Below, piece by piece: positions 1,350 through 11,182 of a stretch of 41,542 nt of DNA. Position 1 is the stretch's first letter; the number at the start of each line of letters is the position of its first letter. Source of the DNA: an uncultured Caryophanales bacterium (GTDB lineage: Bacteria; Bacillota_I; Bacilli_A; RF39; UBA660); the NCBI GenBank assembly GCA_948442255.1, contig CAOJRT010000012.1:1-41542 (forward strand), given 5' to 3'. Below the pieces are notes generated by a model. The model was not told the DNA's origin. It was given only the letters and a program-made list of their open reading frames with translations, and made no database searches. A program made the position numbers and the translations under genes.

Positions 1350-2234
1350 ATGGAAAAAAAGCGCGTTTCAGGTTCTTTTGTAGTTGCTATTATAGAAGGA
1401 GTTTTTCTGCTTTTACTTATTGGTCTTATTTTATTAGGGATTTTATATTATACTTTTAAGCAAAATAAATATGTTGGTGTTTATGAATATACTTATAAAG
1501 AGAGTGACAGTTCTTCTAAAACTAAGATTCAACTGAAAATAGAAAAAAATAATAAAATAACAGTTTATATGGCAAATTATGCGAATAACGCTTGGATATC
1601 AGAGGAAGAAAAAGAGGGGACTTATTTTATTTCTAATGGATGGATGTCTATAGAAGTTCATGATGAAGAAGAAGATTTTGATTATATTTGGGTTAATTTC
1701 CCTTTGCAAGAAGAAATTATTTGTTATAGTTATAATTGTAAAAATGTATTTGAAAAAACAGATTTAAAAGATATAGAAAAAGAAACGATAGTGGAAACAA
1801 ATAGAGATGACTCGACAACTACGTCCGAATTGACGCAGTTTCAAGAAATAACAGGTTCATCTATCGCATCGCTTAGTAAAAATAAAACAATCGTGGTCTT
1901 AATAGGAAGAGAAAATTGCAGGTGGTGTTTACGTTTTGCTCCTATATTTGCAGATGTTACAAAGGAATATGGTGTTGAACCTTATTATATAGATTTGACT
2001 AAAATATTAGATTTTTCATCAGAAAGTTTTCAAGTTTTAGATGAAAAATCTTATCAAGCTGTTGTTTCTTTAAAAGGCGAGGGGGAATGGAGTACGTTTG
2101 CTAGTGAGCATTTTGGAGCAACTCCTCAAGTTTTAATTATAAAGGATAACCAAGTTATTGGGGGACAGAGTGGATACTCTGAAGCTAATCAATTTTCGAA
2201 TACTTTAGAAAATGCAGGGTTTAAAAAACGTTAG
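1350..2234 (+). CDS. Membrane-anchored thioredoxin-domain protein (CRWC)
   Basis: Protein of 294 residues: N-terminal membrane helix (about 10-35), a beta-rich middle domain of unknown kind (about 40-135), an acidic/Thr-rich linker, then a thioredoxin domain from about 158. The active-site motif is Cys190-Arg-Trp-Cys193 after VVLIGRE, and a cis-proline-type motif follows (ATPQVLIIKDNQ). I infer an extracytoplasmic thiol-disulfide role. The SD GAAAGAGGG precedes the ATG. The middle domain looks like a lipocalin- or beta-sandwich-like sensor seen in other surface proteins, but I cannot name it. Ends in its own terminator; monocistronic. Confidence 0.75.
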   Translation: MEKKRVSGSFVVAIIEGVFLLLLIGLILLGILYYTFKQNKYVGVYEYTYKESDSSSKTKIQLKIEKNNKITVYMANYANNAWISEEEKEGTYFISNGWMSIEVHDEEEDFDYIWVNFPLQEEIICYSYNCKNVFEKTDLKDIEKETIVETNRDDSTTTSELTQFQEITGSSIASLSKNKTIVVLIGRENCRWCLRFAPIFADVTKEYGVEPYYIDLTKILDFSSESFQVLDEKSYQAVVSLKGEGEWSTFASEHFGATPQVLIIKDNQVIGGQSGYSEANQFSNTLENAGFKKR

Positions 2235-2242
2235 TTTTAACT

Positions 2243-2274
2243 CGTAAAAAAGAACGTTTTGGTTCTTTTTTACG
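2243..2274. terminator. Strong bidirectional terminator
   Basis: CGTAAAAAAGAAC (2243-2255) pairs perfectly with 2262-2274 around a 6-nt loop. The T6 lies inside the right arm, and A6 inside the left arm gives the same on the other strand. Confidence 0.8.
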
Positions 2275-2574
2275 TGACAACATTTAGTCAATTTTTTTTT
2301 GCCTTATATAAATTTATTCTTTATAATTTTATAGGGAATATCAATTGCTGAGTGTCTACAAAATCCTACAAAATCCTACAAAAAGAGAGGAACTAATTTA
2401 ATACATTTGAGACTGAAGATATAAGAAATTATAACCATTTATGTGTATATTTTATCGTAAATACATATAAATAAAGATTATAAAGATATTTAAGAACTTA
2501 TGAAGAGATACCCACAAAAACTGAATGTTCCTTTTTTTGTATATGCAAGTTTCCTTGACATCTTCATAACAACA
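2275..2574. other. Gene-less spacer with a 10-bp tandem repeat
   Basis: I see no convincing coding region. The only structure is a short direct repeat, unit CTACAAAATC, at 2356-2384 (two full copies and most of a third) next to a purine-rich stretch. TTGACA at 2555-2560 has no matching -10. The stretch borders the 3' end of tRNA-Arg, a frequent integration target, so it may be what is left of an integrated element; that is inference only. Confidence 0.4.
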
Positions 2575-2601
2575 TAAAAATGACTCTTTTACAAGCCATT
2601 T
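2575..2601 (-). terminator. Probable terminator of tRNA-Arg
   Basis: Read on the minus strand, AAATGGCT pairs with AGTCATTT (2594-2601 with 2578-2585, one G-T wobble), loop of 8, followed by a short T-run. It lies 38 bases beyond the tRNA 3' end. Confidence 0.5.
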
Positions 2602-2639
2602 CACTATTTCAACTCAAAGTTCGAGTTATCCTAACAATC

Positions 2640-2716
2640 TGGTGTCCCCGAGGTGATTCGAACACCTGACCGATCGCTTAGAAGGCGATTGCTCTATCCA
2701 GCTGAGCTACGAGGAC
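2640..2716 (-). tRNA. tRNA-Arg (anticodon TCT)
   Basis: The reverse complement folds into a complete cloverleaf: acceptor GTCCTCG/CGGGGAC, D arm with AGCTGGATA loop, anticodon stem ATCGC/GCGAT with loop CTTCTAA (anticodon TCT, reads AGA/AGG), T arm AGGTG-TTCGAAT-CACCT, discriminator A and an encoded CCA (2640-2642). AGA is the dominant arginine codon of this AT-rich window. It has its own promoter inside the end of gerM. Confidence 0.96.
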
Positions 2717-2737
2717 ATTTGCTCATGGAACATATAA

Positions 2738-2766
2738 ATTATATAATAAAGATTATGATTTTGCAA
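2738..2766 (-). promoter_or_regulatory. Promoter of tRNA-Arg
   Basis: On the minus strand TTGCAA (2766-2761), 17-nt spacer, TATAAT (2743-2738). It overlaps the last codons of gerM. Confidence 0.7.
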
Positions 2767-3670
2767 GCCCAAATTGGTCAATTAAAACATCTTCGGCATA
2801 AAAGGAAACATCTTTTATTCCTAAAGTGTCATGTAGAGAGTAAAATATAGCATATTTCACTTCTTCTTTTAAAACGCCATCATATACACTATCTAATAAA
2901 ACATCATTAAAAGAAAGCGTAATATCATTTTCATTTATTGAATAGTTTGTCAGTTCGAGTTGGTAGTTTAATTGTGTACTTAAGTTACTATAGTTTAGAG
3001 AATTTCCTTTTAGACGATTGATAATAATATTAACTTTGTCATTTTCATCATTAACAAGAAGGGAAACAGGTACATAGTAATTCTTCTTCTGATAATACAG
3101 AGTGACTCTTTTAGTGTCATAGAATGTCGTAATGTCATCAATTTTATTAATACCATAAGAACGGTCTAGATATAAATCTAGTTTTTTATGAGAATGGGGT
3201 AGTTCCTCTAAATGATTACCTTCGACAAAAATCATTACTTTTTCTACTTCTTCGATGGAAGTTAGCGAAAAAATAAGACTTTCTAACATCTTTTCTTCTA
3301 ATTCTTTTGAAATCGTTAAGAGTGTTTTGTTGAAATTTACTTTTAATAAGCCCTCTTGTAAAGAAGCATCTAATAACTTAGTATCTTTTGGGAGAATAGG
3401 TTGTAAATCTCCATTAATTGTAGCACCACTACCTATTGTTAGTGTTGTAATAATTTCTTTTACACGATCTAGAGAAGTATTTACTTTCGAACTATATTCG
3501 CTCATCGCAATAAAATCATCTGCATCTATTAAATAAATTGTTCTTTTTACGACTATTTGCTCTTCACTAATGTGTTTCGTTAGTTCTTCTGGATAATTAT
3601 AAATAATGACAGAAACTAAGAGAAGTAAAGTTGTAATACATAATCTTTTAAATGTTATATTTTTTATCAT
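2753..3670 (-). CDS. gerM: GerM-like sporulation/germination protein with two GerMN domains
   Basis: Protein of 305 residues: one N-terminal membrane helix (about 11-24) and two GerMN domains (about 48-165 and 190-297). The second half of each has the expected pattern of a short strand followed by a helix carrying repeated hydrophobic residues (TIGSGATING... LLKVNFNKTL in domain 1; NIIINRLKG... ITLSFNDVLL in domain 2). In Bacillus GerM is a spore-envelope protein needed for normal sporulation and germination and is linked to the engulfment complex. SD AGGTGG lies close to the ATG. It follows gerE in the same direction, as these two genes lie near each other in B. subtilis, but a terminator separates them here. 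Confidence 0.88.
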   Translation of the reverse strand: MIKNITFKRLCITTLLLLVSVIIYNYPEELTKHISEEQIVVKRTIYLIDADDFIAMSEYSSKVNTSLDRVKEIITTLTIGSGATINGDLQPILPKDTKLLDASLQEGLLKVNFNKTLLTISKELEEKMLESLIFSLTSIEEVEKVMIFVEGNHLEELPHSHKKLDLYLDRSYGINKIDDITTFYDTKRVTLYYQKKNYYVPVSLLVNDENDKVNIIINRLKGNSLNYSNLSTQLNYQLELTNYSINENDITLSFNDVLLDSVYDGVLKEEVKYAIFYSLHDTLGIKDVSFYAEDVLIDQFGLAKS

Positions 3671-3703
3671 GAAACCACCTTACTAAAGTATATTTTAAAA
3701 AAT

Positions 3704-3726
3704 ATAAAAAAGTCCATTTCGGACTT
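3704..3726 (-). terminator. Terminator of gerE
   Basis: On the minus strand AAGTCC (3726-3721) pairs with GGACTT (3715-3710), loop of 5, followed by a T-rich run. The left arm begins in the gerE stop codon. Confidence 0.7.
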
Positions 3727-3928
3727 ATAAATCTATCTCATTTAATCTAAGTAATTCAACTATTGCTTGACTGCGACCATTTACCCCAAGTTTTTGGATA
3801 ACATTTGATATATGATTTCTTACTGTTTTCTCACTTATTAAAAGTTTTCTAGCTATTTCTTTAGTAGAATTATTTAGTACTAAAAGATCAAATACTTGTT
3901 TTTCTCTATTCGTTAAAATATTCTTCAT
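3725..3928 (-). CDS. gerE: Spore transcription regulator GerE
   Basis: Protein of 67 residues made of a single LuxR-type helix-turn-helix (B. subtilis GerE has 74). The core TKEIARKLLISEKTVRNHIS followed by QKLGVNGRSQAIVELLR is nearly the Bacillus sequence. GerE is the last mother-cell regulator, tuning SigmaK-dependent coat genes as a dimer on DNA. The shorter N-terminus lacks only the few residues before the LTxRE helix. A SigmaK-type promoter lies just upstream and sigK itself is present at 17269-17955, matching the known order sigK then gerE. Confidence 0.95.
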   Translation of the reverse strand: MKNILTNREKQVFDLLVLNNSTKEIARKLLISEKTVRNHISNVIQKLGVNGRSQAIVELLRLNEIDL

Positions 3929-3955
3929 ACAATTTCTCTCTTTCTACTATCACTA

Positions 3956-3984
3956 TATTGTATGAAAAATAGCTTGTTTTGGTT
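3956..3984 (-). promoter_or_regulatory. SigmaK-type promoter of gerE
   Basis: On the minus strand AACC (3984-3981), 16-nt spacer, CATACAATA (3964-3956). This fits the SigmaK consensus (mACm, 16-17 nt, CATAnnnTA) at every conserved base. The -10 alone would also suit SigmaE, but no SigmaE-type -35 lies at the shorter spacing. Confidence 0.7.
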
Positions 3985-4471
3985 AATTAAATTTAACAGT
4001 TATATATTTGTATTCTTTGAATTTGGCCTGTGTAGCACGAATAAGATTGTTTGCAAGTGCAAAGTCATGTTCTTTTGAAATGATAACAATAGTTATATTA
4101 TTCCCATTTATTTTAACAAAAGATTCTAAAGAGAAATCATCTTTAATCATTTTTTCTAACTCTTGTTCCATTCCTTTGTTTGAAGATAATTCTAGTAAAC
4201 TGTTAAAAGCATCATTTTTTTCTATAGAAGATGCTGTTTCACTCAAAAGTATATTTTGTAATTCGTTCATTGTTTCTAAATCCTCTTCGTCACTTTGAAC
4301 ACGCAAAGCGACTAATTCTGTACTTTCATTTACGACCAATGTTGTATCGTCAGTTTGGGGCATTTTTGTTAAACTGGTGATGTCACTTTCATTCATACTA
4401 ATATAAAAGATACTTAAAACTAAAATAATGCTAAATAATAAAACGAACCAAAGATTTTGTTTATTAATCAT
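3983..4471 (-). CDS. spoIIIAH: Stage III sporulation protein AH
   Basis: Protein of 162 residues with an N-terminal membrane helix (about 7-25, KQNLWFVLLFSIILVLSIFYI) typical of SpoIIIAH, a variable linker, and a C-terminal ring-forming domain (about 65-162) ending in a strand-helix-strand motif (NNITIVIISKEHDFALANNLIRATQ). SpoIIIAH sits in the mother-cell membrane and binds forespore SpoIIQ across the gap to form the feeding channel. SD GGAGGA precedes the ATG. It ends two bases into the gerE promoter region. The other spoIIIA genes are not in the window. Confidence 0.85.
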   Translation of the reverse strand: MINKQNLWFVLLFSIILVLSIFYISMNESDITSLTKMPQTDDTTLVVNESTELVALRVQSDEEDLETMNELQNILLSETASSIEKNDAFNSLLELSSNKGMEQELEKMIKDDFSLESFVKINGNNITIVIISKEHDFALANNLIRATQAKFKEYKYITVKFN

Positions 4472-4576
4472 TTTTATTCCTCCATACTACTAAATCATAT
4501 TAATTTACATTGAAAATTATACTTTTTATTTTACTAATCTTGAAATTTATATTATTATAGTAATAGGTGAGGCAAA

Positions 4577-5065
4577 GTGACAAAGAAACAAAAACAGAAA
4601 ATGTTAAGAAATAGTTTGTTTTTTCTATTTTTAGCTTTATTCTCTATTTTATCTATTGTTTATGCAGAAGAAGTATATGTGACTTCAGCTAAAATTAATT
4701 TTTGTGATTATCCTAGTACAAGAAGAACTCTACGTACTATTGGTTATGTTGTATATGGAATTAAACTAGCGGTTCCTATCATTCTTATTGGGGCTGCTAT
4801 GCTTGATTTATTTAAAATTGTTATTTCTGGAAAAGATGATGAAATGAAAAAAGCTATATCTACTATCGTTAAAAGAGGAACAGCAGGATTAATTGTTTTT
4901 CTTATCCCTACATTAGCACAGTTCTTATTTGAAACGTTAATTCCGAATGACCAAACTAATTTTACGGTCTGTACAGGCTGTATTACAGAACCACAAGAGT
5001 GTGATGTTAATATTGAAGAACCATGTACTCTGGTTGATAGTAATGGAAATTGTAAAAAAGATTAA
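4577..5065 (+). CDS. Small multi-spanning membrane protein, VirB2/TrbC-like, cysteine-rich tail
   Basis: Protein of 162 residues starting at GTG with SD AGGTGAGG. An N-terminal hydrophobic segment ends in VYA-EE, like a signal peptide (about 12-31). Two further membrane helices lie at about 58-78 and 99-120, separated by a short charged loop (SGKDDEMKKA), the usual plan of VirB2/TrbC pilin-like or conjugation-associated proteins. The tail (from about 128) holds six cysteines in a short acidic stretch. No other secretion genes are nearby. Next to the bacteriocin operon, so a role there (for example immunity) cannot be excluded. Family call is tentative. Confidence 0.45.
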   Translation: MTKKQKQKMLRNSLFFLFLALFSILSIVYAEEVYVTSAKINFCDYPSTRRTLRTIGYVVYGIKLAVPIILIGAAMLDLFKIVISGKDDEMKKAISTIVKRGTAGLIVFLIPTLAQFLFETLIPNDQTNFTVCTGCITEPQECDVNIEEPCTLVDSNGNCKKD

Positions 5066-5142
5066 TTTTTCTTTTTTTTTTGCAAAAATAAAAAGGAAAT
5101 CTTTCTTTCACGGCTAATAAGTATAGTGAAGGGAGGAAAAAT

Positions 5143-7185
5143 ATGCAAAAAAGTTTTATTGTTAAACAGCAAGACTTAAGAGATTGTGGCGTTTGTTGCT
5201 TAGCATCTATTATAAAATATTATAATGGAAATATCCCTCTTGAACGTTTAAAATTAGATACGAAAACGGGAAAAAATGGGACGTCAGCCTTAAATCTTAT
5301 TAAGACTGCTAGAAAATATGGTTTTGATGCAACAGGAAAGAAATTAAAACAAATATCGTGTGAAGAAATAACACTGCCAGCTATAGCCCATGTAGTACTC
5401 AAAAACGGATTAAATCATTTCGTAGTGATTTATAAATTCACCAAACAGACTGTTATCTTAATGGATCCTGCTAAAGGATATGTCAAAATGAAAAAAGAAC
5501 AATTTTTGGAAATATGGACGCAAGTCATTATTATTTTAAAACCCATTACTAAAATACCAGTAATGAATTCATCCAATACCCTCAAAAAACTTTTTATCAA
5601 TGTTATCAAAAATGAGAAAAACACATTCTTTAAACTTATTGGCATTAGCCTTTTTATTACATTGCTTTCTATTTCAACAAGTTACTTTTTACAATTTATG
5701 ATGCATTCTTTAGAAAATAGTTCTATTATGATTACATTTGTTATTATTGTTGTTTTTTTCTTTTTAACTATAGTTAAGTTGTATACAAACTATATTAAGA
5801 ATGAATATATTATTTATTTAAATAAAAATATTGATATACAAATTTCTTTAGATTTTTTGCATCATCTTTTTTATCTCCCTTTATATGTCGTCAAAAATAA
5901 AAGTAGTGGAGAAATTATGAAAAGAGTACAGGAATTAACTAGTATAAAGGAGCTATTTACTGAAGTCATTATTTGTCTTATTTTAAACCTTGTCTTACTA
6001 TTGTCTTCAGCTTTTTTCCTTTATCATATACATGCGCAATTATTTTTTATTCTTTGTATAATTGTTATTGTATACTTTATAGTTGGTTTCTTTTGTACCC
6101 CTGTTATTCATAAAAAATTAGACGACATAGTGGATTCTGAGACGGAATATAACTCTATTATGATGGAAAATATAGAGAACATGGAATCTTTGAAGCATTT
6201 GAATTTGACAAAGAAAGCAGAAGAAGTGGTCGAAAAATCATTCGTTTCCTATATCAAAGAAAATTTGTCTTATATGCGTTTTTTCAATCAATATAATTCG
6301 GCTAAATCTTGTATATATGAAATAGGTTTGTTTTTTATTACTGCTTTTGGAATTCTTTTGATAGAGAAAAATCTACTTAGTTTTGTGTCTCTAATGACGT
6401 TTAACACGTTATTAACTTATTTTATAACACCTGTAGAAGAGATATTATCTCTCTTACCTAAATATGAATTAATAAAAGTCTCTTTTTATAAGATAAATGA
6501 ATTTTTGAATATTGAACCAGAACATCTTGGAAAACAAGAAAAATTTTTCCCAGGGACAATTAAATTTCAAAATATTACTTATTCCTATGACAATTATAAG
6601 GATATACTTCTTAATACTAATTTAGAGATAAAGGAAAAAGAGCATGTTATTCTTTCAGGGGATAGCGGTTGTGGAAAAAGTACCATGTGTAAAATGTTGT
6701 GTAGAAATATTGATGATTATTTAGGAAATATAACTATTAACGATATAAATATAAAAGAATATTCGCTTTATACTATAAGAAAAAATATATTATATGTTTC
6801 ACAAAGAGAAAGATTATTTACCGATACAATAAGGAATAATATTACTCTCCATAAAAAAGTTTCTGTAGAGGAGTTAAACCAAATTATTAAAATTACGGAG
6901 GTTGATAAAATTCTTGATAAAAAAACGCTTCGTTTGGAATCGCTTTTGCTTGATAGCGGATATAATCTAAGTGGAGGAGAAAGACAACGAATTGTACTAG
7001 CACGCTCCTTATTAAAAAAACCTAAAATTCTTATTTTAGATGAATCTCTAAGTGAACTTGATGCAGGTAGTGAAAAACATATACTGACTAATATTAAACG
7101 TTATTTAAAGGATACAACGTTAATTTATGTGACACATAATGAAACAAATTATTTGGAAAGAAGAATAGAAATACCTTCTCTATGA
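5143..7185 (+). CDS. Bacteriocin ABC exporter with N-terminal C39 peptidase
   Basis: Protein of 680 residues. Residues 1-130 form a C39 cysteine peptidase that cuts leaders after Gly-Gly: Cys15 in QQDLRDCGVCC, His92 in NHFVV and Asp108 in MDPAKG complete the triad. Residues about 160-440 hold the membrane domain. The ATPase domain has Walker A GDSGCGKST (from 506), signature LSGGERQR (from 609), Walker B ILILDES and the switch THN. It processes and exports double-glycine peptides across the membrane. SD GGGAGG precedes the ATG. It overlaps the next gene by ATGA, and the two substrate peptides lie just downstream at 7598-7907. Confidence 0.95.
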   Translation: MQKSFIVKQQDLRDCGVCCLASIIKYYNGNIPLERLKLDTKTGKNGTSALNLIKTARKYGFDATGKKLKQISCEEITLPAIAHVVLKNGLNHFVVIYKFTKQTVILMDPAKGYVKMKKEQFLEIWTQVIIILKPITKIPVMNSSNTLKKLFINVIKNEKNTFFKLIGISLFITLLSISTSYFLQFMMHSLENSSIMITFVIIVVFFFLTIVKLYTNYIKNEYIIYLNKNIDIQISLDFLHHLFYLPLYVVKNKSSGEIMKRVQELTSIKELFTEVIICLILNLVLLLSSAFFLYHIHAQLFFILCIIVIVYFIVGFFCTPVIHKKLDDIVDSETEYNSIMMENIENMESLKHLNLTKKAEEVVEKSFVSYIKENLSYMRFFNQYNSAKSCIYEIGLFFITAFGILLIEKNLLSFVSLMTFNTLLTYFITPVEEILSLLPKYELIKVSFYKINEFLNIEPEHLGKQEKFFPGTIKFQNITYSYDNYKDILLNTNLEIKEKEHVILSGDSGCGKSTMCKMLCRNIDDYLGNITINDINIKEYSLYTIRKNILYVSQRERLFTDTIRNNITLHKKVSVEELNQIIKITEVDKILDKKTLRLESLLLDSGYNLSGGERQRIVLARSLLKKPKILILDESLSELDAGSEKHILTNIKRYLKDTTLIYVTHNETNYLERRIEIPSL

Positions 7186-7598
7186 TAGAAACATATTTAC
7201 TTATAAATGAAAGAGCAAAAAAACACCCTTTCTTACTTATCATAAGCAGTCTTATTATTTTACTTATTGTTCTTTTCTATCGTTTGGAAGTTTATAGTTC
7301 TATTCCTGTAACAGGAATAATGGAATGTGAAGACAATACAAATATTTCTTTCACCCTTCCTTATAACCAAGTAGATAAACTAACAAGTCAAGCTAAACTT
7401 TATTATAAAAGTAAAGAATATGCAATAGAATCCATTTCTTTTGAGGAGCCTTATTTAGATCATAATGTTCCTTATCAGGATATTCTTATACAAACCAATA
7501 TGGTTTGTGAAGAAAAAATAATTTATTTTAAAATTATGTATAATAAACAAAGAATACTGACCAAAATAAAACAAATCATCGTAGAAGGAGAATCATAA
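7182..7598 (+). CDS. Short HlyD-like bacteriocin secretion accessory protein
   Basis: Protein of 138 residues: a short cytoplasmic start, one membrane helix (about 17-36), then a small beta-rich domain. The segment SSIPVTGIMECEDNTNISFT followed by LPYNQVDKL resembles the barrel part of membrane-fusion proteins that partner C39 exporters, but the long coiled coil of full HlyD proteins (300-400 residues) is missing. Start ATG overlaps the exporter stop (ATGA), and its stop overlaps the first peptide start (TAATG), so translation is coupled on both sides. Alternative: an immunity protein, since no other candidate lies in the operon. Confidence 0.6.
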   Translation: MIETYLLINERAKKHPFLLIISSLIILLIVLFYRLEVYSSIPVTGIMECEDNTNISFTLPYNQVDKLTSQAKLYYKSKEYAIESISFEEPYLDHNVPYQDILIQTNMVCEEKIIYFKIMYNKQRILTKIKQIIVEGES

Positions 7599-7750
7599 TG
7601 CAATTAAAAGAAAACGAGTTAAATCAAATTGAAGGAGGAGCTTTTAAAATCAACAAACCAACACTCGCACTTATTGGAGGAGGAGTTGCCTTTGTTATTG
7701 GGTTTGTAAGTGGATTTTTACGTCCTTCCTCATGTAGTAGTGGAAAGTAG
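7598..7750 (+). CDS. Double-glycine bacteriocin peptide A (putative)
   Basis: Fifty codons, too short for usual gene calling. Leader MQLKENELNQIEGG ends in Gly-Gly and has the L-x(3)-EL-x(2)-I-x-GG pattern cut by C39 peptidases. The core has 36 residues: a cationic start (AFKINKP), a hydrophobic helix rich in glycine (LALIGGGVAFVIGFVSG) with a GxxxG motif, and the tail RPSSCSSGK with one cysteine. The start overlaps the stop of the preceding gene, and AGAAGGAG serves as SD. With peptide B it looks like a class IIb two-peptide bacteriocin. Recognised by pattern only, not by similarity to a known bacteriocin. Confidence 0.8.
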   Translation: MQLKENELNQIEGGAFKINKPTLALIGGGVAFVIGFVSGFLRPSSCSSGK

Positions 7751-7757
7751 GTAGAGT

Positions 7758-7907
7758 ATGAGAGAAGAAGAATTAAATCAAATATATGGTGGAGCCTTTA
7801 GTGCTGCATTAATTAATGCTATTTCTAGAGGATTTAATACGATATATGAATTAGGTCGTTCTTTAGGAACTAGCTTAAAAATGATTATCTCAAAGAAAAA
7901 ATGCTAA
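7758..7907 (+). CDS. Double-glycine bacteriocin peptide B (putative)
   Basis: Forty-nine codons plus stop. Leader MREEELNQIYGG shares ELNQIxGG with peptide A. The core has 37 residues, starts with AF as in peptide A, is mildly cationic and could form an amphipathic helix (FSAALINAISRGFNTIYELG); a GxxxG motif (GRSLG) follows, and the chain ends KKKC. GxxxG in both partners is the hallmark of two-peptide bacteriocins, whose helices pack together in the target membrane; the single cysteine in each could link them by a disulfide. Seven bases separate it from peptide A, and a strong terminator follows at once. Confidence 0.8.
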   Translation: MREEELNQIYGGAFSAALINAISRGFNTIYELGRSLGTSLKMIISKKKC

Positions 7908-7911
7908 TGAT

Positions 7912-7947
7912 AGAGAAGAAAGGGGAACTCTTTCTTCTCTTTTTTTC
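7912..7947 (+). terminator. Terminator of the bacteriocin operon
   Basis: AGAGAAGAAAG (7912-7922) pairs perfectly with 7930-7940, loop of 7, followed by T7. Confidence 0.9.
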
Positions 7948-7969
7948 TTCCATTTTCCCTTGTTTTCCC

Positions 7970-7998
7970 TTGTCAAAAAAACATGCAAGTGATATAAT
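7970..7998 (+). promoter_or_regulatory. SigmaA promoter of rpsU-yqeY
   Basis: TTGTCA (7970-7975), 17-nt spacer ending TGA, TATAAT (7993-7998). Strong consensus with an extended -10, as expected for a ribosomal-protein gene. Confidence 0.85.
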
Positions 7999-8029
7999 CA
8001 TTAGTAGCTAATGAAGGGAGGGAAATTTA

Positions 8030-8218
8030 ATGACAAAAGTAGTAGTACAAAATGGTAACATTGACAGCGCTTTAAAGAAATTTAAAATCAAAGTAGCTAA
8101 AAGCGGAGTCCCTTCTGAAATAAAAAAAAGAAAATGCTATGATAAACCAGGCGTAAGAAAACGTGAGGCCAAAAAAGAAATGATTCGAAATTCTAGAAAA
8201 CGTAAAAGAAACGACTAA
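8030..8218 (+). CDS. rpsU: Ribosomal protein bS21
   Basis: Protein of 62 residues, small-subunit protein of the 30S platform near the mRNA exit. The start (MTKVVVQNGNIDSALKKFK) and the basic tail (KREAKKEMIRNSRKRKRND) are typical, as is the length. SD GGGAGGG lies 7 bases before the ATG. Followed after 14 bases by yqeY, a pairing conserved in Bacillus. Confidence 0.96.
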   Translation: MTKVVVQNGNIDSALKKFKIKVAKSGVPSEIKKRKCYDKPGVRKREAKKEMIRNSRKRKRND

Positions 8219-8232
8219 TAGGAAGTGAAGAA

Positions 8233-8676
8233 ATGACTTTATTAGAGACAATCGTACAAGATATGACAACAGCTATGAAAGAACAAGATAAATTTAACTT
8301 ATCTGTATTAAGAATGTTAAAAAGTTCTTTACAACTGGAAAAAATTAATAAAAAACGTGATTTAACAGATGAAGAAGTTATCGCTGTTATTAAAAAACAA
8401 GTAAAAATGCGTAAAGATAGTATAGAAGAATTTACGAAATATGGAAAAACTGAAGAAATAGAGAAACTACAACAAGAAATGGCTACTTTATCTAAGTATC
8501 TGCCTCTTGAAATGACTGAAGAAGAAGTCAATCAAGTAATAGAATCTATTTTTGAAGAAATGAAGCCATCTAGTATCAAAGAGATGGGAGCCATTATGAA
8601 AGAAGCCACTCTTCGTTTTGCTGGTAGAGCGGACATGAATTTAGTAAGCAAGAAAGTAAAAGAAAAATTAAATTAG
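8233..8676 (+). CDS. yqeY: YqeY/GatB-tail-like protein
   Basis: Protein of 147 residues, full family length. The YqeY domain resembles the tRNA-binding tail of the GatB amidotransferase subunit: LRMLKSSLQ near the start, the helical KKQVKMRKDSIEEFTKYG, LPLEMTEEEV and the closing GAIMKEATLRFAGRADMN. Function is thought to be tRNA- or amidation-related but is not settled. SD AGGAAGTGA lies 5 bases before the ATG. Second gene of the rpsU operon; a terminator begins in its stop codon. Confidence 0.93.
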   Translation: MTLLETIVQDMTTAMKEQDKFNLSVLRMLKSSLQLEKINKKRDLTDEEVIAVIKKQVKMRKDSIEEFTKYGKTEEIEKLQQEMATLSKYLPLEMTEEEVNQVIESIFEEMKPSSIKEMGAIMKEATLRFAGRADMNLVSKKVKEKLN

Positions 8677-8699
8677 GAGACTATTTGGTCTTCTTTTTT
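8675..8699 (+). terminator. Terminator of rpsU-yqeY
   Basis: AGGAGAC (8675-8681) pairs with GTCTTCT (8688-8694, one wobble), loop of 6, followed by a T-run. Confidence 0.75.
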
Positions 8700-8707
8700 C
8701 ATATCTT
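8681..8707 (+). promoter_or_regulatory. Possible SigmaE-type promoter of yqfC-yqfD
   Basis: CTATTT (8681-8686), 13-nt spacer, CATATCTT (8700-8707), near the SigmaE pattern (ATATT-like -35, CATAnnnT). In B. subtilis yqfCD is a SigmaE target. It overlaps the preceding terminator, and the match is moderate. Confidence 0.4.
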
Positions 8708-8724
8708 TAATTAGGTGAGATGGT

Positions 8725-8967
8725 ATGTTTTTAAAAAATGTAAAGAACTATCTTCAAGAGAAGGACTATAATATTAATTTTTATAAAAATGCATTATATA
8801 TTAATAATTATCAAAAAATCGAACAGATTGCTGATACAAATGTTGTTATATTGTTTGATTCTTTTTTACTAAATATTAAAGGAAGTCATATAACAGTTGA
8901 TAAAATGTTAGATAAAGAAATATTATTTAATGGCTTTTTTGAAAGTGTAACTTTTCATTATAAATAG
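8725..8967 (+). CDS. yqfC: Sporulation protein YqfC
   Basis: Protein of 80 residues, YabP/YqfC family (about 90 in Bacillus). The signature is the end, where short strands alternate (HITVDKMLDKEILFNGFFES then VTFHY), matching the family's L-x-I-x-G...I-x-I-x-F plan. It is made in the mother cell during engulfment; its biochemical role is unknown. SD AGGTGAGATGG precedes the ATG. Its 3' end overlaps the start of yqfD, the conserved partner. Confidence 0.85.
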   Translation: MFLKNVKNYLQEKDYNINFYKNALYINNYQKIEQIADTNVVILFDSFLLNIKGSHITVDKMLDKEILFNGFFESVTFHYK

Positions 8968-10102
8968 ACTTATAGAAGTAACTATTGTCACTTTTTCACC
9001 TAATAAAGCCATTAAATTAATCAAAGCAAGACAAGTTAATATTTATAAAATAAAATATGAAGACAAACAGATTATTCTTCGCATAGAAGAAGAAGATTTA
9101 AAAAAAATTAATAAGATTTTTACAATCAAACATGTAAAATATTTAAATTTTAAACGTTTTTTTAAATTGCCAAAAGCAAATTATTTTCATTTGCTAATTT
9201 TAGGATGTGTTTTATTATCTATTTATCTTTTTACTCGTTTTATTGTTCAAGTGGATATTACTACTGAGAACAAAGAATTAAGGGAAATTATAGAAATGCA
9301 TTTAGAAGAAGAAGGTATTAAAAAATATTTTTTTGCTAAAGATAATATGGATTTAACAAAAATTAAAGAAACTATTTTAAACCGCGATAAAGAACTATTA
9401 GAGTGGATTAATATAGAACGAAAAGGAATGCATTACATCGTTCGATTAGAGCCAAAAGTAACAAAAAATGCAATTGAAGAAAAACCTTATTGCCATGTAA
9501 CGTCGACAAAAGAAGGAACTATTTCTAGAATTATTACCAGTAAAGGAGTAGAATTAGTAGAAATTAATGATTATGTAAGAACGGGTGATATCTTAATATC
9601 AGGCGATATTATTTATAATGAAGAGTCAAAAAAACAAGTATGTGCTTCAGGAAGAGTATTTCTTAAGACTTGGTATACTATAGATATTGAAACAACTAAG
9701 ACCTACGAAGAACAGACACCTTTAGATAAATTTCGTTATAATTTGAAATTAAAATATCATAATAAAACAAAAAAAATTTTTAATGAAAGAGTGGAGAATC
9801 CTTATGAGAAAGATAAAAAAGTACTTAGTTTATTTGGCTATGAACTTTATCTTACAAAAGAGTATGCTTCTTCTTATGAAGTAAAAGAATATGATGAAGA
9901 AAGTTTATCCTTACGAGTAAATCAGAGCATCGATGAGAAAATGTCTAGTATTTTAAAAGGAGAATATCAAATTTTGGAACGAAAAGTTTTGAAAAAAGAA
10001 GAGAATGATAGTACAATTAATATGGTAGTGTTTATTGTAGCAGAAGAAGAAGCAACAGAAGAATACATTCCACCCGCTATAGAAGAAGTACCTACAGAAT
10101 AG
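8957..10102 (+). CDS. yqfD: Sporulation protein YqfD, with a non-standard start codon
   Basis: About 381 residues if read from 8957 (Bacillus YqfD 398). The first canonical codon in frame is TTG at 9167, which would remove about 70 residues. Yet the frame is open from 8951 and its start (INRLIEVTIVTFSPNKAIKL... LRIEEEDLKKINKI) looks like the family's N-terminal domain, before the membrane helix (about 76-96) and the extracytoplasmic part with GTISRIITSKG and VRTGDILISGDI. The start must be ATT (8957) or ATA (8960), overlapping the yqfC stop by several bases. Either a rare start or a point change from ATG. Protein is mother-cell membrane-bound; needed for efficient sporulation in Bacillus. Confidence 0.8.
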   Translation: MINRLIEVTIVTFSPNKAIKLIKARQVNIYKIKYEDKQIILRIEEEDLKKINKIFTIKHVKYLNFKRFFKLPKANYFHLLILGCVLLSIYLFTRFIVQVDITTENKELREIIEMHLEEEGIKKYFFAKDNMDLTKIKETILNRDKELLEWINIERKGMHYIVRLEPKVTKNAIEEKPYCHVTSTKEGTISRIITSKGVELVEINDYVRTGDILISGDIIYNEESKKQVCASGRVFLKTWYTIDIETTKTYEEQTPLDKFRYNLKLKYHNKTKKIFNERVENPYEKDKKVLSLFGYELYLTKEYASSYEVKEYDEESLSLRVNQSIDEKMSSILKGEYQILERKVLKKEENDSTINMVVFIVAEEEATEEYIPPAIEEVPTE

Positions 10103-10112
10103 GAAGTGCAAA

Positions 10113-10742
10113 ATGGAAAATCTTTCTCCTTTTTATGAGACATTTTATTACACCGTTCATAATACTTGGCCGATGCTTACTTTGTTTGTCGTTATCTTAA
10201 CTGTTTTACGAGTTACTCATATGCTTATTCATCGTGAACGATTTATATTTTATAAAGAGTTTTATTCTTTGCTATCTATTTTATATTTTTTGCTTCTTTA
10301 TTATTTGTTACTGAGTACTGAGAAAGCAGCGAGTGGGATAAACTTAATTCCTTTTAAAGAAATAACTAGGTATCCTCTAGGTTCTAAATTGTTTTTTTAT
10401 AATGTAGTAGGAAATATTATGTTATTTATTCCTTTTGGCTATATTGTTTCTGATTATTTGCGCGCAAAAAAAATAACACCTATTTTATGTATTACTATCT
10501 TAATTAGTTTGACAGCAGAACTTATTCAGTATAGAATAGGGCGTGCATTTGATATAGATGACATTTTTTTGAATGTTGTTGGAGGCCTTATTGGATTTAT
10601 GATTTATATTAGTATACAGGCTATTAAAAATCATTTGCCACGTTTTTTAAGAAATAATTTGTTTTACAATATAGTTGCCATCTTGTTTTTTGTTATCTTA
10701 GTTATATTATTTGGAAGTATATGGGGTGTAAAATTATGGTAG
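10113..10742 (+). CDS. VanZ-like membrane protein
   Basis: Protein of 209 residues with about five membrane helices. The VanZ-like domain is clear: INLIPFKEI near residue 76, then NVVGNIMLFIPFGYI, and the ELIQY...RAFDIDDIFLNVVGG segment that holds the conserved acidic residues. VanZ proteins give low-level teicoplanin resistance in some hosts; most have no known role. SD GGAAGTG lies 6 bases before the ATG. It sits between yqfD and ybeY where phoH lies in Bacillus, and overlaps the ybeY start by 7 bases, so it belongs to this operon. Confidence 0.85.
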   Translation: MENLSPFYETFYYTVHNTWPMLTLFVVILTVLRVTHMLIHRERFIFYKEFYSLLSILYFLLLYYLLLSTEKAASGINLIPFKEITRYPLGSKLFFYNVVGNIMLFIPFGYIVSDYLRAKKITPILCITILISLTAELIQYRIGRAFDIDDIFLNVVGGLIGFMIYISIQAIKNHLPRFLRNNLFYNIVAILFFVILVILFGSIWGVKLW

Positions 10743-11182
10743 AAAATCAGTTTGTTATTACAGATAACCACTTGTATAAAGATTATGATTATTTATATCG
10801 AGTAATTGAGCGAACATTAACGCATGAATCAGTAGAAAAAGCCATTTTCTCCATCATTTTTGTTGGAGAAGAGGAAATTCATCGCATCAATAAAGAATAT
10901 CGTGGAGTAGACCGTGTGACAGATGTTATTTCATTTGCATTTGAAGATAATGAAGATATACGATATAATGATATACGAATGCTTGGTGATATATATATAT
11001 GTATACCACAAATGAAAAAACAAGCACTATTATATGGGCATAGCGAAAAAAGAGAATTATCTTTTTTGACAGTACACGGCCTATTGCATTTACTTGGTTA
11101 TGACCATATGGAAAAAGAAATGGAAAAAGAAATGTTTGAATTACAGGAGTTGATATTAGATGAAGAAAACATCCCAAGATAA
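10736..11182 (+). CDS. ybeY: Endoribonuclease YbeY (16S rRNA maturation)
   Basis: Protein of 148 residues, zinc-dependent RNase that helps finish the 16S 3' end and rRNA quality control. The metal site HGLLHLLGYDH is intact, and YRGVDRVTDVISFAFE and MLGDIYIC are typical. An ATG at 10721 in frame would add five residues; I prefer 10736 because GGGGTG lies 7 bases before it. It overlaps VanZ at the front and dgkA by 23 bases at the end, so expression is tightly coupled. Confidence 0.95.
   Translation: MVENQFVITDNHLYKDYDYLYRVIERTLTHESVEKAIFSIIFVGEEEIHRINKEYRGVDRVTDVISFAFEDNEDIRYNDIRMLGDIYICIPQMKKQALLYGHSEKRELSFLTVHGLLHLLGYDHMEKEMEKEMFELQELILDEENIPR

Follow-up and report, generated by a model that had tools for sequence, protein, structure and literature searches.

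A near-core, vertically inherited two-peptide locus with class IIb-like anatomy in the family UBA660 and its possible place in competence

The window analysed here is a 41,542-nucleotide stretch of contig CAOJRT010000012.1 from an uncultured Caryophanales bacterium of the order RF39, family UBA660. It carries an operon of a C39 peptidase-containing ATP-binding cassette (ABC) exporter, an accessory gene, and two short genes, pepA and pepB, which encode precursors with double-glycine leaders. pepA and pepB are real genes, and the locus is a near-core, vertically inherited two-peptide system of the family, not a patchy strain-level bacteriocin. We hypothesize, at about even chances and by analogy to pneumococcal CibAB, that the operon encodes a class IIb-like two-peptide bacteriocin that works within the competence programme of the family. 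The proposed link to competence rests on an upstream motif shared with comEA-comEC and on the joint loss of the peptides and ComEC. Export after Gly-Gly is suggested by the C39 domain and the leaders, and a membrane-acting helix pair by the class IIb pattern of the peptides.

The genes form a single operon on the + strand. An earlier note on this DNA had claimed an exporter, a coupled accessory gene, two open reading frames (ORFs) with leaders, and a terminator, and all of these are present where it placed them. The parts of the operon and its neighbours are:

5092..5118, + strand: promoter-like element composed of AAAGGAAAT (5092-5100), an 11-nucleotide gap, and GGCTAAT (5112-5118); position-restricted motif with sigma-H geometry (RNAGGAWWW ... 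RNNGAAT), one mismatch in the -10 part
5143..7185, + strand: C39 peptidase-containing ABC exporter (PCAT/ComA type), 680 amino acids; Pfam, NCBIfam, and solved-chain matches
7182..7598, + strand: accessory protein, 138 amino acids, N-terminal transmembrane helix and beta-rich domain; overlaps the exporter stop, conserved position
7598..7750, + strand: pepA, double-glycine precursor, 50 amino acids, hydrophobic core ...IGGGxxFxIGxxxGxxRPxxC; TIGR03949, family profile, and conserved columns
7758..7907, + strand: pepB, double-glycine precursor, 49 amino acids, amphipathic cationic core ...SAxxLNAxxRG...LGRxxGxxIRR...C; family profile and conserved columns
7912..7950, + strand: Rho-independent terminator-like hairpin and T-run at the operon end, 13-pair stem at 7912-7940
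8030-8218, + strand: rpsU (Ribosomal_S21), conserved neighbour 3' of the operon, outside the system
8233-8676, + strand: yqeY, conserved neighbour 3' of the operon, outside the system

The exporter contains, in order over its 680 residues, the domains Peptidase_C39 (PF03412, E 6.7e-38), ABC_membrane (PF00664), and ABC_tran (PF00005). The fusion of a C39 peptidase to the N-terminal side of ABC transmembrane and ATPase domains is what defines C39 ABC exporters, which cleave their substrates after Gly-Gly and are also called PCATs. The solved chains closest to the exporter are 4ry2 and ComA (8hf7/8hf4), and the match to PCAT1 and ComA covers nearly the full length. The score against NCBIfam TIGR01193 was 382 bits, under the cut-off of 523.85. 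The terminator hairpin has a weak score by itself, and 0.9 such hairpins are expected by chance in the scanned region.

The pepA leader (MQLKENELNQIEGG, ending ELNQI-E-GG) is followed by a core of 36 residues, and the pepB leader (MREEELNQIYGG, ending ELNQI-Y-GG) by a core of 37 residues. In the window, both cores start with AF, contain one GxxxG motif each (GFVSG and GRSLG), and carry a single cysteine near the C-terminus. pepA matches the class IIb family TIGR03949 (lactobin A/cerein 7B) with 23.0 bits at a cut-off of 21.5; pepB of the window reaches no Pfam or NCBIfam family above its curated cut-off. Among the aligned relatives, 25 of 28 pepA and 9 of 29 pepB sequences match TIGR03949 at E<=0.1, not all of them above the cut-off. 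Weak matches to ComC leaders were also found in the Pfam scan of the window. The domains, leaders, and motifs support the claim of a double-glycine pair with a dedicated exporter and two-peptide, class IIb-like anatomy.

These features recur throughout the family. A Gly-Gly pair lies in the expected stretch of 138 of 140 pepA and 134 of 138 pepB sequences, and GxxxG is present in 136 and 135 of them, respectively. The cysteine of pepA is found in 139 of 140 loci, at most nine residues from the end in 138; that of pepB is found in 137 of 138 loci, at most five residues from the end in 136. The sequences that lack it are truncated, by an insertion in genome G029 and by a contig end in G032. A GxxxG motif in both partners and a single cysteine near each C-terminus, pointed out earlier for the window, thus occur in about 98% of loci. 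The near-invariant cysteine in both peptide families strengthens, without proving, the idea that the two residues pair.

Several loci depart from the common form of the pair. In G081 (locus L121), two tandem pepA-pepB pairs follow a single exporter, which is the clearest duplication. In L076 (G030), a 227-codon ORF that looks methyltransferase-like by sequence (8868-9886) separates pepA from pepB. In L068 (G020) and L080 (G034), pepA lacks an ATG, GTG, or TTG at the expected site past the Shine-Dalgarno sequence, which may reflect an ATT/ATA start or an error of the metagenome-assembled genome. In two genera, represented by G029 (L075, L282) and G162 (L160, L275), pepA is interrupted at one and the same codon, after ..IDG-Y/L and inside the conserved G-x-x-x-G stretch. 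A gene resembling large serine recombinases (526/552 amino acids, judged by inspection) lies by the junction. In G162, some 35 kb of a single contig lies between the pepA halves, and phage lysis-like ORFs are found in the G029 element. Prophage-like elements apparently use pepA as an integration site.

The distribution of the locus was determined in a family sample of 145 genomes from 144 genera, using profiles built from 28 pepA and 29 pepB rows and an exporter threshold of E<=1e-50. pepB was found in 135 genomes, and pepA and the exporter in 134 each. All three are absent from eight genomes, G083 and G160 have only an exporter fragment and no peptides, and G064, G072, and G074 have the peptides but no exporter at this threshold. 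Among 59 relatives searched at E<=1e-60, the exporter occurs in 32: 13 of 15 genomes of the same genus, 18 of 21 other genomes of the family, and one of the 23 from elsewhere in the class. Reading of the neighbourhoods in relatives placed pepA and pepB behind the exporter almost everywhere. Over 146 oriented loci, the profiles detected pepA in 140, pepB in 138, rpsU in 84, and yqeY in 70, in the order exporter-(accessory)-pepA-pepB-(ORF3), often beside rpsU-yqeY; ORF3 is a small ORF 3' of pepB. The locus statistics leave out the outgroup G058; counts that require an exporter match also leave out G064, G072, and G074, which were located by pepB. Exporter fragments (G079, G083, G160) were not counted as exporter loci, and additional stretches of split or broken loci were kept out of the counts.

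Two ORFs of 50 codons could by themselves be chance. However, pN is lower than pS for both peptides in seven within-genus pairs, with a ratio of nonsynonymous to synonymous substitution rates (dN/dS) of 0.06-0.30 wherever dS is finite, and this, together with the family-wide conservation and the fixed order behind the exporter, establishes that pepA and pepB are genes. The earlier note had named in advance two observations that would speak against the pair, namely its absence beside the exporter in relatives and a lack of purifying selection; conservation beside the exporter and purifying selection were found. Its description of a new, local operon does not stand, since the locus belongs to nearly the whole family, which is unusual for a bacteriocin. 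It made no mention of the promoter-like motif common to the exporter and comEA-comEC or of ORF3, which many relatives have. Protein distances over 69 genomes are correlated between exporter and YqeY (r 0.68) and between pepA and pepB (r 0.61), all with p 0.001 by Mantel permutation; the correlations of pepA and pepB with the exporter are lower (r 0.39 and 0.47). The correlated distances and the rpsU-yqeY neighbourhood fit vertical inheritance. Genome contigs searched with the exporter yielded distant ABC transporters only. A plasmid search gave no close relative of the exporter; 226 records contain exporters with less than 60% identity (about 31% in the best rows).

Outside the family, 4 of 258 genomes of the same class have weak pepB matches, mainly to the leader and the core start. 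Proteins with double-glycine leaders and a pepB-like start (SGALLNGIG or similar) were observed in another family of the class, the ORFs of which were read with genetic code 4 (L270 7039-7431, L271 1470-1862, L272 7107-7601, L273 6841-7173). Three of the four adjoin rplU, and L272 has two such proteins in tandem.

The presence of the peptides is associated with that of the DNA-uptake channel protein ComEC. ComEC occurs in 129 of the 145 family genomes, in 125 of the 135 that have pepB and in 4 of the 10 that lack it (Fisher p 1.1e-4). With the set limited to genomes of 90% or higher completeness and 5% or lower contamination, the counts are 101 of 107 and 1 of 5 (p 1.6e-4). Spo0A is present in 134 of 145 genomes, including nine of the ten without pepB, and shows no association (Fisher p 0.56), so the joint loss with ComEC is not gene loss in general. 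The reduced genomes of the family, its Spo0A, and the presence in the class of a group read with genetic code 4 agree with the order RF39, which is predicted to be spore-forming according to the available part of PMC10868615. Sporulation as the main link of the operon was rejected, given the Spo0A result and the absence of the upstream motif described below from its proper position in all 20 spo0A upstream regions; sporulation timing of the operon stays a secondary possibility.

In 139 exporter upstream regions, the sequence AAAGGAAAT is enriched at roughly -50 to -45 relative to the start codon. When the regions are anchored on it, which took 102 of the 139 and fixed the anchor bases by construction, a GAAT/AAT element emerges 21-22 nucleotides past AAAGGAAAT. 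Sigma-H promoters have a spacing of 11-12 nucleotides, and the two elements have their geometry. The published consensus is RNAGGAWWW and RNNGAATWW (excerpt of PMC8510167). We searched for A[AG]GGA[AT] at -60 to -38, with the exporters as the defining set and comEA as the independent set. Seventeen of 20 comEC loci were used; L285 (contig start), L290 (comEA not clear), and L293 (too near the edge) were dropped, and six comEA ORFs that were checked have SLBB and HHH_3 domains. The motif precedes 74 of 139 exporters, 7 of 17 comEA, 3 of 84 rpsU, 3 of 70 yqeY, and 11 of 547 other genes (2%); the enrichment at comEA over other genes has p 1.5e-7.

Exporter and comEA upstream regions from one genome are more similar than those taken from different genomes (permutation p 0.0002 over 15 genomes), and their likeness also stands out against genes of the same locus (Wilcoxon p 0.003). 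Start codons were assigned automatically; at least two of the exporter starts used for this paired comparison (G146, G170) seem to be misplaced and were not altered. The likeness is strongest in G088, G097, G108, G115, and G159. In G097, TACGAATA lies upstream of both genes; it is the streptococcal SigX box in the accessible part of PMC6224593. Judged from these upstream sequences, the sigma factor acting on the operon may be of the sigma-H/ComX family.

Immunity candidates were sought within the operon. Of 137 loci, 94 have an accessory-like ORF of at least 85 amino acids between the exporter gene and pepA. The accessory protein has no sequence relative in Pfam or the Protein Data Bank (PDB), and its single-sequence AlphaFold2 model (predicted local distance difference test 66.8) has no Foldseek match at E<=0.001; a membrane-fusion protein has no support from Pfam, PDB, or Foldseek. 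It may be an export adaptor or an immunity protein, both as candidates only. ORF3 was detected by profile in 55 of 146 oriented loci, or 55 of the 130 with room to judge downstream. It lacks a double-glycine leader and has a conserved proline (98%) and a GxxxGxxxR motif (100% and 93%), with the spacing of the C-terminal half of pepB (GxxxGxxxRR). The resemblance makes decoy-type immunity a possible function for ORF3, a membrane protein.

We propose that a sigma-H/ComX-family factor would transcribe the operon along with comEA-comEC, and that the C39 exporter would cleave both precursors after Gly-Gly and export the cores. The hydrophobic helix of pepA may then pair with the amphipathic cationic helix of pepB through their GxxxG faces, and a disulfide between the single C-terminal cysteines could lock the pair. 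By analogy to CibAB, the pair would permeabilise membranes of neighbouring non-competent relatives, the DNA of which would be released for uptake. Where present, ORF3, which has the GxxxGxxxR motif in common with pepB, may serve as a decoy-type immunity protein. In its boldest form, which we consider doubtful, the proposal describes a predatory module at the core of the whole family: a disulfide-locked pore formed only in competent cells would kill kin for DNA, ORF3 would be the decoy immunity protein in many lineages, and prophages integrated in pepA (two genomes) would switch the module off.

A number of observations weigh against a competence-linked bacteriocin. Near-universal presence is unlike most bacteriocins. 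The ComEC association takes no account of kinship and genome decay, and G136, G164, and G175 keep ComEC though they lack the peptides. The motif is absent from about half of the exporters and from 10 of 17 comEA upstream regions, and its -10 part is weak. Only 6 of 15 genomes have comEA above all controls from the same locus, and the rpsU control, in a nine-genome subset, likewise reached p 0.015. In the window's own genome, the strict motif has 17 sites against 6 control sites and reveals no wider regulon: 15 of the 17 lie inside ORFs longer than 100 amino acids, and none lies within 150 nucleotides upstream of an ORF of at least 60 amino acids. The window's own site fails the strict pattern, with TAAT in place of GAAT, and the SigH-like protein of this genome scores 116 bits, far under the equivalog cut-off of 294.8. 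Of the 130 loci whose downstream sequence is long enough to judge, 30 have neither the accessory gene nor ORF3 in the operon, and so no immunity candidate; the operon of the window is without ORF3 and has no evident immunity gene, the accessory gene at most.

A self-directed or signalling role would agree with near-universality almost equally well, and alternative explanations were therefore kept. The operon may encode a conserved two-peptide bacteriocin that serves competition or niche defence and is functionally unconnected with competence. The class IIb anatomy of both peptides and the TIGR03949 matches of pepA agree with this, and since sigma-H controls many stationary-phase genes, the common motif could mean only a shared stationary-phase sigma factor; the joint loss with ComEC and the lineage-specific likeness of exporter and comEA upstream regions make this explanation unlikely. 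We consider it distinctly improbable that one or both peptides are pheromones that trigger competence or sporulation, like ComC/CSP exported by ComAB. The exporter does resemble ComA (8hf7), and the weak ComC leader matches and the co-occurrence with ComEC would suit a pheromone, but the ORFs at 2000-11000, around the operon, include no kinase/regulator pair, and two peptides with invariant GxxxG and cysteine follow a helix-pairing, not a receptor-ligand, pattern. Furthermore, pneumococcal comAB is an early, ComE-driven operon in the excerpt of PMC5295010, whereas the motif here resembles that of late genes.

The pair could also be part of the producer's own cell envelope and not aimed at other cells, for instance a secreted helix pair that aids DNA passage or acts in sporulation. 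Its near-core conservation, the loci devoid of an immunity candidate, and the wide occurrence of Spo0A would all be accommodated. We hold this similarly improbable, as Spo0A is not lost together with the peptides, and a double-glycine leader combined with pair anatomy is of bacteriocin type.

Genes next to the operon were also inspected. A small membrane protein is encoded directly upstream of the exporter (4577-5065); its match to T4SS_pilin, at 24.9 bits, stays below the cut-off of 26.6. Several genomes of the same genus, as well as G026, have similar ORFs in front of the exporter. Just upstream of the operon, GerM-like, stand-alone LuxR/GerE-type, and SpoIIIAH-like genes stand in a row on the - strand (2753-4471); it was these sporulation genes that prompted the comparison with Spo0A. 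Upstream of spo0A in 20 genomes (L250-L269), there are recurring TTCGACA/TCGACAAA boxes, which we take to resemble 0A boxes.

As a rule, bacteriocins are patchily distributed, mobile, and quick to change. The pair described here is conserved to the degree of an ordinary core gene across the 144 genera sampled, and loss of the pair accompanies that of the DNA-uptake channel. If the competence-linked bacteriocin is real, more than 130 genera would have inherited two-peptide killing as part of competence, and kin predation for DNA would be an old, heritable feature of a large lineage of uncultured bacteria instead of a streptococcal speciality. To our knowledge, no member of the family has been cultured, and the peptides would offer a defined, synthesizable handle on these bacteria. 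The single cysteine per core makes a covalent heterodimer directly testable.

Among the best matches in the open-licence PMC literature, no paper describes the locus, as judged by title or abstract start. The nearest parallel is CibAB, which is exported by a ComA-type transporter. In the available part of PMC5295010, ComX induces the two-peptide bacteriocin CibAB along with the late competence genes, and CibC neutralises it. The competence sigma factor there drives both CibAB and the DNA-uptake genes, and the motif here is common to the exporter and comEA-comEC. In contrast to CibAB, the exporter lies within the operon, the pair is kept across more than 130 sampled genera, each core has a near-invariant C-terminal cysteine, and no relative of CibC was identified. 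As sequences were not compared with CibA, CibB, or CibC, the locus is not filed as a CibAB homologue.

With class IIb bacteriocins (lactobin A/cerein 7B of TIGR03949, lactococcin G type), the locus shares the double-glycine leader, short hydrophobic or amphipathic cores, GxxxG, paired genes, and a C39 exporter. It differs from them in that pepB of the window is above no curated cut-off, in the one C-terminal cysteine per core, in vertical inheritance, and in the frequent absence of an immunity gene from the operon. The exporter has the domain architecture of PCAT1 and ComA over nearly its full length; the accessory gene has no sequence relative in the PDB or Pfam. In Listeria, a sigma-H promoter drives comEABC (excerpt of PMC4754846), as proposed here for comEA-comEC with a putative sigma factor, and the sigma-H regulon described in that excerpt includes no bacteriocin. 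The control of comEABC in Listeria makes a sigma-H-type competence regulon plausible in the class.

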